From assembly GCF_900110685.1 (NCBI RefSeq), contig NZ_FOES01000001.1:62001-126000 (forward strand): 64,000 nucleotides of DNA, in the 5' to 3' direction. Within the stretch, counting starts at the first letter, position 1. Every line of letters starts with the position of its first letter. The notes beneath the pieces are model-generated. The model was not told the DNA's origin. It worked only from the letters and a program-made list of their open reading frames with translations, and ran no database searches. Both the position numbers and the translations under genes were made by a program. Shown here one piece after another: positions 45,346-47,987 of the stretch. The stretch comes from Piscibacillus halophilus. Lineage in GTDB: Bacteria; Bacillota; Bacilli; Bacillales; Alkalibacillaceae.

Positions 45346-45387
45346 AAATATAAAAACGATCCGATAAAATGAATAGTGGGGGATATT

Positions 45388-46158
45388 GTGAAAGATAGAG
45401 AGACTATTTCAGTTATAAAGGAAAAACTAAGTAACGAGGAATTTTCACACGAATGGCTAGAATCTATAAAACAAGATGAACGTAAAGGCGTTCAACAGTT
45501 ACTCAACCGATTTTTAAAACAAAAAGAAAAGCAGTCTAAATTACATGAACAGTTTTTAAAAATGTCGGAGTTTGAAACAGAGTTGTATCAACAAGGTTTT
45601 TGTTATATCGCAGGTGTGGATGAAGTCGGGAGAGGACCTTTAGCGGGGCCAGTTGTGACCGCAGCTGTTGTGTTACCTCAAGACTTTTATCTTCCTGGTA
45701 TTAATGATTCTAAGTCACTATCAGAACAACAAAGAAATGAGTACTATCACGTGATCCAAGAACATGCTACTTCAATTGGTATTGGACTAGCGGATGCTAA
45801 AGAGATTGATTATTTTAATATTTATCAAGCTACTAAAATAGCTATGCAGCGTTCTATAGAAGCCTTAACGACACAGCCTGATTATTTACTATTGGATGCG
45901 ATGCGACTTGAACAAGTTAACATTGAACAACAATCTATAGTCAAAGGAGATGCGAAAAGCATTTCAATTGCAGCAGCTAGTATTATAGCAAAAGTTGAGC
46001 GTGATCGAATGATGAAAGAAATAGGAGAAGAGTACCCGATGTATCAGTTTGAACGTAATGTAGGCTATGGTACTAAAGCACATTTAGAAGCTTTAAGGGA
46101 ATATGGACCAACTCCTTATCATCGGCGTTCATTCCAACCTGTTCGTCAATATACATAA
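45388..46158 (+). CDS. rnhB: Ribonuclease HII
   Basis: A 256-residue RNase HII, removing ribonucleotides and RNA primers from DNA. After an N-terminal helical region of about 70 residues comes '[20 protein letters not shown]' with the catalytic Asp-Glu pair, '[15 protein letters not shown]', '[11 protein letters not shown]' (third Asp), '[20 protein letters not shown]' and 'ERDRMM' (fourth Asp). GTG 45388 follows GGGGGATA; an upstream GTG at 45376 overlaps that site. It lies 15 bases before the ylqG-like gene. Confidence 0.95.
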
Positions 46159-46173
46159 GTAGGTGAATGTGGG

Positions 46174-47727
46174 ATGAAATCAATTGAAAGAATGGTTTCT
46201 TCAGTTCAACAAAATCAACGTCTATCAAACGTTCTAACATTAAGAGAAGGGCAGCTCATTACCGGAAAAATCACAAAATTTTATCCCGGGAATAAAGCTG
46301 CTGTTTCATTATTGGGGCATCAATTAATTGCGCAATTAGATACCTCATTGCAAGTCAATAAGCACTACCTCATGCAAGTTAAAGGGACCCAACCATCCGT
46401 TCAATTGAAAGTCGTTCATCCATCGGAAGTCACATCTTACAGAGATGCTGCCCAGAGATTAATTTATTCTGCTAATGAAAAAGCAAACAAAAACGAACAG
46501 ATGCAATTGGCTAATTTACTTAAACAGCAACTCCCAATCAAGCCGAATCAAATATCTTCAATTATTCAATTGATGAGACAACATCAGGTGCCTAATCAAA
46601 ATGAAATTTTTTCTGAAATGATTAAGCAAAGTCTACCGTTAAATCGAGAGACATTTCAGGCTGTTCATCAACGAATTAATCAGCCTGTTTCTTTCTCTCA
46701 GTCTATTCAAGTGTTACAAAATCAATTATCTCAGTTGAATGTAACAGAAGAGCTCTATCAATTAAACCAAAGATTATCTATACTCAGATCACAACCTATA
46801 AGTGTCCAACAATTTCAAGAATCTGTGGCGTTTCAAACACTAAAAGAAATTGGTCAAGGTTCTACTACTACTTTTTCATTATTTCAAAAAGCGGGGCTCA
46901 TCTCTAATCAACTGAGTTTTGAAGACTGGGCAATTCAGTGGAAAAGTTGGGCATCACAAAACCGAGTAACGTTTTCTTTTTCTAATCCAACTTTAAACGC
47001 CGCACTACCATTTAATCTTCCAGCAGAAAACGTAGTAGCAGCAATGAGACAATATGCTAACGTTCATTTACCTAATGAAAATAGAGCAGTTTCTTTTTGG
47101 CTTGCGATGTCTTCGTTAATAGGTGCAGAAGGTAACAACCCATTGAATACTCAATCGTTAAAGAATTTCTTTCAATTAACACAGGTTGAGCGTTCCATAC
47201 ATCAAGATTATCCATCTATCCAATCTTTGTTAAAGGTGGTTAACAATCAGCTTGGGCATACATCTGTAACTGAGCCTATACAACAACTAAACCAAGTGTT
47301 AAATGCTATGCATCTATCTAATCATGAATTAACTAGGGACTTAATGACATTTACTGCACAATTACCAAAAGAAGCTTTAGGGTTAAACCAAGACTTGTTT
47401 ATGGAATTTGAAGGTAAGAAGCAAAACGATGGCAAACTTGCCTCAAATCAGTGTCGGGTGATTTTTTATCTTGATATGCCAAATTTAAATCAAACCATTA
47501 TCGATATGCATGTGCAAAATAAACATGTCGAGCTCTCGGTTTACCACGATCAACCAGATGTACTTAAAACGATTACAAAACCGTTGATTCCACTGTTATC
47601 TGAGCGTTTAGAAGGACAGGGGTATCATTCTATTCATGTTAATTTTAAGCCGATATTTGAAAAAGAAGTTCTGTCTAATAAATCATTAGATTTACCGATT
47701 GAATCAGGAGTTGATTATCGCGTATGA
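46174..47727 (+). CDS. YlqG-like protein with FliK-like C-terminal domain
   Basis: A 517-residue protein in the position of B. subtilis ylqG. The N-terminal part ('LREGQLITGKITKFYPGNKA', about 23-42) looks like a beta-barrel of the kind seen at the start of FliK-type proteins. The middle (about 90-420) is Gln-rich and helical. The last 90 residues ('IDMHVQNKHVELSVYHDQPD' then 'VLKTITKPLIPLLSERLEGQ') follow the pattern of the FliK C-terminal domain. It overlaps the FlhB-like ylqH by four bases. By analogy it may work with it in substrate switching of a flagellar-type export gate; this is inference, and the real role is unknown. Confidence 0.6.
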   Translation: MKSIERMVSSVQQNQRLSNVLTLREGQLITGKITKFYPGNKAAVSLLGHQLIAQLDTSLQVNKHYLMQVKGTQPSVQLKVVHPSEVTSYRDAAQRLIYSANEKANKNEQMQLANLLKQQLPIKPNQISSIIQLMRQHQVPNQNEIFSEMIKQSLPLNRETFQAVHQRINQPVSFSQSIQVLQNQLSQLNVTEELYQLNQRLSILRSQPISVQQFQESVAFQTLKEIGQGSTTTFSLFQKAGLISNQLSFEDWAIQWKSWASQNRVTFSFSNPTLNAALPFNLPAENVVAAMRQYANVHLPNENRAVSFWLAMSSLIGAEGNNPLNTQSLKNFFQLTQVERSIHQDYPSIQSLLKVVNNQLGHTSVTEPIQQLNQVLNAMHLSNHELTRDLMTFTAQLPKEALGLNQDLFMEFEGKKQNDGKLASNQCRVIFYLDMPNLNQTIIDMHVQNKHVELSVYHDQPDVLKTITKPLIPLLSERLEGQGYHSIHVNFKPIFEKEVLSNKSLDLPIESGVDYRV

Positions 47728-47987
47728 ATAAGAGGCACAAAGCGTTTGCATTAAAATACGATGAACAAGAAGATTCAGCTCCAAAAGTCGTAGCAAAGGG
47801 AAAAGGGTTAGTGGCTGATGAAATCATGGAAAGAGCGAAAAATGCTGATGTTCCTGTGTATGAAGATGAATCCCTAGTTAACCTTTTAGAAGAAATTAAT
47901 ATAAATGAATCAATCCCAGAAGAATTGTATGAGATAGTGGCTGAAGTGTTTGCTTTTATCTATCAAACTGATAAAAAATATGATTAA
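47724..47987 (+). CDS. YlqH-like protein: free-standing FlhB C-terminal (export-switch) domain
   Basis: An 87-residue protein homologous to the cytoplasmic C-terminal domain of FlhB: 'RHKAFALKYDEQEDSAPKVV' and 'AKGKGLVADEIMERAKNADV', then 'IPEELYEIVAEVFAFIYQ'. In FlhB this region follows the autocleaved NPTH site; here the protein starts almost exactly where the cleaved fragment would and has no NPTH and no membrane part. It is therefore like a pre-cleaved FlhB-CC fragment. The start ATG 47724 overlaps the YlqG stop. The flagellar flhB itself is not in the window. Confidence 0.82.
   Translation: MNKRHKAFALKYDEQEDSAPKVVAKGKGLVADEIMERAKNADVPVYEDESLVNLLEEININESIPEELYEIVAEVFAFIYQTDKKYD

Follow-up and report, generated by a model that had tools for sequence, protein, structure and literature searches.

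A FliK-like protein and a stand-alone FlhB C-terminal domain encoded as a pair in Bacilli: a candidate accessory module for substrate specificity in flagellar export

The mechanism by which flagellar export switches from one substrate class to another has long been disputed. A locus in Piscibacillus halophilus raises a question of its own in this regard, as a 64,000-nucleotide (nt) stretch of this genome (the window, i.e., the whole stretch of DNA analysed) contains a gene for a FliK-like protein, ylqG, next to a gene for a detached C-terminal domain of FlhB, ylqH, both outside the flagellar operon. What might such a pair be for? The names ylqG and ylqH are taken from a first-pass annotation of this DNA and are presumably those of the Bacillus subtilis genes. 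Genome searches were confined to the window's own phylum (Bacillota, with Bacilli referred to as the class) and 14 control genomes and, on their evidence, the ylqG-ylqH pair belongs to flagella. As to its role, sequence comparisons somewhat favour the view that YlqG-YlqH may be a replaceable FlhB C-terminal domain (FlhB-CC or FlhB-CCD) with its own ejector, acting as an accessory specificity module at the flagellar export gate. In Salmonella, according to the available portion of a 2026 study (PMC13344023), FlhB-CCD keeps the gate in early mode, FlhB lacking the CCD fails to secrete the hook-protein fusion FlgE-Bla, and the authors propose that FliK ejects the cleaved FlhB-CCD at hook completion, as an irreversible step, and that the last five FliK residues act on FlhB-CCD. 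The two genes, their junction and the residues of greatest relevance in YlqH are as follows.

46174-47727, + strand: ylqG, encoding a FliK-like protein of 517 amino acids (aa) (open reading frame, ORF; matched at 7e-125 by profile A3, which includes this protein)
47724-47987, + strand: ylqH, encoding a stand-alone FlhB C-terminal (CC) domain of 87 aa without NPTH (ORF; Pfam, NCBIfam and structure alignments)
47724-47727, + strand: ATGA overlap of the ylqG stop and the ylqH start (4 bases, read from the sequence)
47778-47783, + strand: YlqH A19-P20, corresponding to A286-P287 of the early-substrate pocket of Salmonella FlhB (3b0z alignment, pocket residues of PMC9307174, conservation)
47940-47951, + strand: YlqH A73 and F76, corresponding to FlhB A341 and L344 (3b0z alignment, pocket residues of PMC9307174, conservation)

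YlqH matches the Pfam profile Bac_export_2 (PF01312) with an E-value (E) of 3.3e-21 over profile positions 257-335 of 335 only, that is, the last 79; judging by the extent of this match, the N-terminal membrane domain of FlhB, which lies before about position 257, is absent. The protein also matches TIGR00789 (flhB_rel) with an E of 1.4e-32 and 111.7 bits, just below the curated cut-off of 117.35, and that cut-off is a strict one for the class, since some match exceeds it in only 6 of 398 class genomes. The best solved relative is chain B of 3b1s, a separate FlhB C-terminal chain whose residues 3-84 align with YlqH residues 5-85, and YlqH therefore begins at the start of cleaved FlhB. Whereas NPTH is found in 31/31 FlhB of the class, it occurs in 0/129 YlqH-type rows (two genes being fetched twice among these), and among 61 YlqH, 52 have K or R at the position of the NPTH histidine. 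Thus, the earlier proposal that YlqH is an FlhB-C homologue that starts at the cleavage point and lacks NPTH is borne out. In Salmonella FlhB, residues A286, P287, A341 and L344 form, in the account given by the accessible part of PMC9307174, the pocket at which early substrates dock. Among 61 class YlqH, the A286 site is A in 56, the P287 site is P in all 61 and the A341 site is A in all 61; the L344 site is F (32), L (27) or M (2). By alignment, then, YlqH has lost the cleavage site and retained the early-substrate docking pocket. The P. halophilus genome (83 contigs, 2,992,995 bases in total) also encodes, 9.2 kb past the window end, a full-length FlhB whose NPTH lies at residue 275, and the presence of a full FlhB with NPTH beside a short YlqH is an arrangement of the FlhX type.

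Three parts can be distinguished within YlqG.

47380-47655, + strand: switch domain of the FliK-C/PscP (T3S4) kind, aa 403-494 (Flg_hook, hhalign, and PscP/FliK-C structure matches)
47707-47724, + strand: C-terminal tip GVDYRV following a disordered tail (tip pattern in 49/61 YlqG; tail with a predicted local-distance difference test score, pLDDT, <50)
46231-46410, + strand: N-terminal beta-rich segment, aa 20-79 (profile A3 with near-invariant G26, G31, A42, A53 and V69; low-confidence model strands)

Compared with Pfam (best E 0.1) and NCBIfam (best E 0.015), the window YlqG has chance-level matches only, all below cut-off. Against the Flg_hook profile (PF02120), the stretch 47446-47646 scores 17.7 bits (E 0.0068), which is the second-best place in the genome behind the true FliK. 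When Flg_hook was run over 61 genomes, that of P. halophilus included, 27 YlqG matched at E<=1e-3 and 8/61 lay above the curated cut-off; at E<=1e-3 the matches in these genomes consisted of 61 stronger proteins taken as FliK, 27 YlqG beside YlqH and 7 second YlqG-type proteins, with nothing beyond these three kinds. The possibility that YlqG is the genome's only, or hook-length, FliK is ruled out by the stronger Flg_hook protein that is encoded elsewhere in 61/61 genomes. Profile-profile comparison (hhalign) of 60 YlqG C-termini with 31 FliK C-termini gave a P of 5.3e-8 (prob 94.8, 55 columns), and the controls, three other YlqG segments and the reversed domain, gave P values of 0.077 to 0.41. 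Because orthologues match Flg_hook (27/61, with 8 above cut-off) and because of the profile-profile result, the YlqG C-terminus is regarded, on sequence grounds, as homologous to the FliK switch domain. A hidden Markov model (HMM) of YlqG-C also matches 27 of 31 FliK, where the E-values of the YlqG/FliK HMM tests, like those of the cassette-locus searches below, refer to small sequence sets. One disrupted YlqG (L128, genome G311), apparently split so that two frames, of 446 and 326 aa, precede ylqH, was left out of the profile comparison and of the YlqG HMMs.

Fold comparisons point the same way and are supportive, not decisive. An AlphaFold model of YlqG residues 382-517, built from three sequences, has a pLDDT of 71.5, with a disordered tail below 50, and its best Foldseek match is 5cuk, the switch domain of PscP (prob 1.00). 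Upon re-alignment of 997 chains, 5cuk again ranks first (Z 6.8, root-mean-square deviation, rmsd, 3.5 over 78 residues), followed by the FliK C-terminal domain, 2rrl (Z 5.6, rmsd 3.4, 75 residues). The FliK-like character that had been claimed for the YlqG C-terminus is upheld by the profile comparison, and the fold matches lend it some support. The full-length model is poor (pLDDT 46), having low-confidence N-terminal strands and a helical middle; a search of the sequences of solved structures with YlqG gave none at E<=1, and a viral structure library held no relevant match to the YlqG model. Regarding the tip, an ending of the form [VILF][DN]x[RK]x is seen in 49/61 YlqG, 23/39 ORFs upstream of ylqH phylum-wide, 11/27 proteins of the second subfamily (YlqG2, see below) and 29/456 neighbouring ORFs, and a looser ending without R/K in 54/61, 36/39, 18/27 and 65/456, respectively. 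YlqG has a median length of 577 aa (n=61), and FliK a median of 463 aa (n=31; range 395-544).

The two genes travel together: immediately ahead of ylqH there is a long ORF in 60/60 class loci and in 39/40 phylum-wide loci, and the four-nt overlap is possible in 51 of the 60 class loci, when among candidate starts the one nearest overlap is picked. At E<=1e-3 the YlqG-C HMM recognises 25 of those 39 phylum-wide ORFs, the N-terminal HMM 21 and at least one of the two 31, each of these two HMMs matching 2/228 other ORFs. A YlqG profile found its protein in 17 of 20 YlqH-bearing genomes (13/16 of those outside the profile; 4 of the 17 had supplied sequences to it), the misses being G200, G158 and G396, all of one family, and in none of 29 flagellate genomes without YlqH or 21 genomes without FlhB. 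Hence, ylqG and ylqH are linked and jointly absent. The immediate surroundings in the window include the following gene.

45376-46158: rnhB, upstream neighbour of ylqG-ylqH (ORF)

On the far side from rnhB the neighbour is sucC, and the placing of the pair between these genes with a 4-base overlap, as first annotated, is exact to the coordinate. Upstream rnhB is found in 58/60 class loci and downstream sucC in 27/60; phylum-wide, a search of the pair's own strand within about 3 kb detected upstream rnhB in only 12 of 40 loci, so that the pair persists where this neighbourhood does not. The pair does lie apart from the flagellar operon, as described: the canonical fliK of P. halophilus is located 1.3 kb past the window end, 17.6 kb downstream of ylqG-ylqH. 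The pair-to-fliK distance is nevertheless <=45 kb in 46/61 genomes; the accompanying Fisher test takes no account of relatedness and carries no weight here.

The distribution of YlqH follows that of flagellar export genes. In a sample of 398 class genomes, YlqH is present in 249 of the 278 that have FlhB or FlhA, whereas none of the remaining 120 has it. Expressed as TIGR00789 matches, 248 genomes have at least two, 29 have FlhB alone, one (G396) has YlqH alone and 120 have none. In the 248 multi-match genomes, every matching place was examined for a short open frame separate from FlhB, and the only uncertain case was G262, where the YlqH-type match falls inside a 357-aa open frame. FlhA is present in all 29 FlhB-only genomes and in G396. 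The latter was set aside as a candidate YlqH-bearing genome truly without FlhB: its FlhA shares a contig with YlqH, and the missing FlhB is therefore probably a gap. Of the 120 genomes without a match, 20 were searched for FlhA, which turned up in one of them as a fragment; this lone fragment in G038 (C2:122190-122747, a 287-aa frame, E 1.5e-23), with no FlhB, is possibly a flagellar remnant. Weak Bac_export_2 matches (E 2e-6 to 6e-4) were also seen in G033, G299, G326, G343, G397 and G167, which have neither FlhA nor a TIGR00789 match. Phylum-wide, TIGR00789 matches occur in 327 of 398 genomes, FlhB counted in, and among the matches listed the strongest are short, YlqH-like open frames. YlqH is therefore restricted to genomes with flagellar export genes, and the flagellar linkage suggested in the first-pass annotation stands when presence and absence are compared across genomes.

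A further indication of function comes from a second subfamily of pairs (YlqG2-YlqH2), which that annotation did not contain. The 28 extra-copy loci considered, 8 from the Flg_hook matches and 20 from a directed search, were picked for their extra copies and not at random. The gene order in 18 of them, in and outside the class, is ylqG2-ylqH2-fliS2-flagellin2, with the FliS start within 450 bases and the flagellin within about 1 kb.

L208-L211, L213, L215, L217, L218, L220, L221, L223-L228, L234 and L235: the 18 cassette loci

In one of these, L223, a gene for a DUF327 protein lies between the pair and FliS, and a DUF327 gene occurs within 3 kb downstream in 12/18; around the cassettes of L220, L227, L228 and L234, no fliD, flaG or flgK gene is labelled. 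In L212 and L214 the pair is followed by DUF327 and by genes read as yvyF-flgM-flgN-flgK-flgL, of which yvyF, flgN and flgL are names that we presume. More generally, we take the neighbour names YlqF, YvyF, YviE, FlgN, FlgL, FliW, CsrA, ComFA, ComFC, DegS, DegU and DegV to apply from the sequence pattern. The cassette order is partially departed from in L216, L219, L222 and L229-L233, among which L232 has no late-flagellar neighbour, and the ylqH2 of L229 and L233 was lost to the ORF filter. In two loci, Pfam confirmed FliD, FliS (two), FliT, flagellin, DUF327, FlgK, FlgM and FlaG. By comparison, a late-flagellar neighbour was found in the flanks of 1/100 first-type loci, and this single case (L197) is in fact a pair of the second type. 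DUF327 proteins (L214:10535-10978, L212, L215, L223, L231 and others) are repeatedly encoded behind the second pair or behind its flagellin, and the family, of unknown function in Pfam, may accordingly have a part in flagella.

In a tree of 80 of the 160 sequences (101 columns), only the starred branches were used, because it was made from a subset by a quick method. All FlhB stand apart from all YlqH (starred, support 100), and 27 of 28 YlqH2, with members in and outside the class, fall with L196 (one YlqH2 that was fetched twice) into one branch (starred, 99), L232 lying outside. The pocket of YlqH2 is relaxed at the A286 site, which is A in 15/28, and the other three sites are kept in 27, 26 and 26 of 28. 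YlqG2 has a median length of 784 aa (n=27; range 571-2316), and includes giant FliK-type proteins of 2316 aa (L219:604-7554) and 1885 aa (L215:4045-9702), far above the 395-544 aa of canonical FliK. Tandem duplication is suggested by extra ylqH-type genes (L226:7847-8161, L219:10275-10565), each some 2 kb away from another pair. As the cassette carries its own flagellin and FliS, the likely cargo of the second subfamily is named by its gene neighbours, and the cassette form may be devoted to a flagellin of its own. The earlier thought that the pair serves another complex finds no support, because paralogous pairs sit among fliS, flagellin, fliD, flgM and flgK genes.

The way in which the two proteins might act at the export gate can be outlined from these data. 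YlqH would be a soluble version of the cleaved FlhB-CCD; having the docking pocket and lacking the autocleavage site, it could thus be supplied separately and could fill, or fill again, the place of the CCD at the gate. YlqG would be its partner, probably co-translated with it, and a T3S4-type domain plus a flexible tail with a -G-V-D-x-R/K-I/V tip would engage YlqH and control its stay, an action modelled on the ejection of FlhB-CCD by FliK in Salmonella, as outlined in the part of PMC13344023 at hand. With YlqH in the vacated CCD site and YlqG governing its stay, the gate would gain a second, perhaps reloadable, specificity setting; the pair would tune which substrates pass, and YlqG2-YlqH2 would do so for one filament protein. 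The steps from YlqG-YlqH binding onward, including gate docking, ejection and the effect on substrates, are ones that we infer. In a bolder version, which is tentative and rather doubtful, YlqG-YlqH pairs would be interchangeable gate cartridges, YlqH being loaded after FliK ejects the CCD and removed by its own YlqG; the switch would then not be a one-time event, and the second subfamily, often with DUF327 and with its relaxed A286 site, would load the gate for its dedicated flagellin.

Several observations weigh against this picture of an accessory module. On the side of YlqG, the window protein is below the curated Flg_hook cut-off (17.7 vs 29.8 bits), a FliK-C HMM run on 61 YlqG matches only one at E<=1e-3, and the YlqG N-terminal HMM matches 0/31 class FliK, so that no likeness between the N-termini was detected. 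The best Foldseek match has an E no better than 0.013, and the Z of 5.2 for an unrelated chain, 2kf2, counts as a tie with the 5.6 of 2rrl, the remaining chains being at <=4.4. Additionally, the R/K tip pattern is found in 0/31 canonical class FliK tails, though the looser form is in 17/31. At the level of genomes, 29 of 278 flagellates are without YlqH, which is therefore not required for flagella, and 99/100 loci have no late-flagellar gene within their 2-3 kb flanks, which thus point to no substrate class for the primary pair. Finally, the 28 cassette loci were picked precisely because of their extra copies.

The rival explanations overlap, and the probabilities given to them need not sum to one. 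In the one that survives best, which is nevertheless unlikely, cytoplasmic YlqH is a decoy or buffer that competes with FlhB-CC for FliK or early substrates and is relieved by YlqG, making the pair a delay timer and not a part of the gate. The lack of a membrane part, the retained early-substrate pocket and a partner related to FliK, which acts on FlhB-C, would all suit such a decoy; however, YlqH2 sits in cassettes with late genes (FliS, flagellin), where the sequestering of early substrates makes little sense. Still less likely is a role as back-up only, with YlqH a spare CCD for lost or damaged FlhB-CC and YlqG a FliK copy kept alongside. Helicobacter pylori HP1575 is reportedly called a 'spare part' for when the FlhB CC domain is deleted, in the title of Wand et al. 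2006, and the flagellates that manage without YlqH agree with dispensability, but pure redundancy fails to explain phylum-wide retention, joint absence and a cassette with its own flagellin. Similarly improbable is a second hook- or filament-length ruler, in which secreted YlqG measures the structure and YlqH is its private receiver. The lengths of YlqG and YlqG2 relative to FliK and the helical middle of the low-confidence model fit a ruler, whereas the stronger Flg_hook protein in every one of the 61 genomes and the failure to find N-terminal similarity of YlqG to FliK do not. A non-flagellar role tied to rnhB, ylqF, rplS or sucCD, to which the rnhB and sucC neighbourhood in the class might point, is very improbable and was rejected on the distribution across genomes, as YlqH is in 0/120 genomes without FlhB, the pair stays together in the 28/40 phylum-wide loci where rnhB was not found beside it, and paralogous pairs are located in flagellar loci.

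The reading of YlqG-YlqH as an accessory specificity module at the export gate is, on balance, the one preferred here. The observation made in the first-pass annotation is confirmed, and its interpretation is partly supported. If the module is real, a second switch, and perhaps one that can be reloaded, would exist in many Gram-positive flagella, which would help explain the retention of ylqG-ylqH in 249 of the 278 flagellate class genomes sampled. The pair would supply separately exactly the two parts, ejector and cleaved domain, of the irreversible step proposed for Salmonella in the available text of PMC13344023. Since the likely cargo of the sister pair is named by gene neighbours, the idea is directly testable by gene deletion.

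Among known systems, stand-alone FlhB-C proteins (FlhX, flhB_rel) are established; the role of YlqG and the cassette were not met in the literature searched, from which subscription papers were mostly absent and in which neither a study of what ylqG or ylqH does nor an account of the cassette turned up. In the portions available, an flhX-fliK gene pair away from the main cluster is mentioned for Nitratiruptor (PMC9321776), and FlhX is counted among the flagellar export proteins of Actinobacteria (PMC10746217) and Leptospira (PMC4758666). From texts likewise seen in part, ylqH is annotated as a secretion gene in Aliarcobacter (PMC9235176) and ylqG P457Q is one of several changes carried by evolved swarming clones (PMC11523185), function not being shown by either. 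Relative to FlhB-CC/CCD, YlqH is the same domain from the cleavage point on, with the pocket kept (P287 and A341 in 61/61, A286 in 56/61, L344 as F, L or M), but it is a separate gene product with no membrane part and no NPTH, and K or R generally replaces the NPTH histidine. It resembles FlhX, TIGR00789 proteins and HP1575 in being a stand-alone FlhB-C-like protein of about 90 aa, although the window YlqH is just under the curated TIGR00789 cut-off, and the FlhX accounts, in the parts accessible, describe neither a FliK-like protein that is dedicated to FlhX as its partner and has an N-terminal domain of its own nor a FliS-flagellin cassette. YlqG, in turn, shares with FliK-C and PscP a profile similarity (to FliK-C), a tentative fold similarity (PscP being best) and a disordered tail with a conserved end, and differs from them in having another N-terminal region, a gene outside the flagellar operon and, in all 61 genomes, a stronger Flg_hook protein besides.

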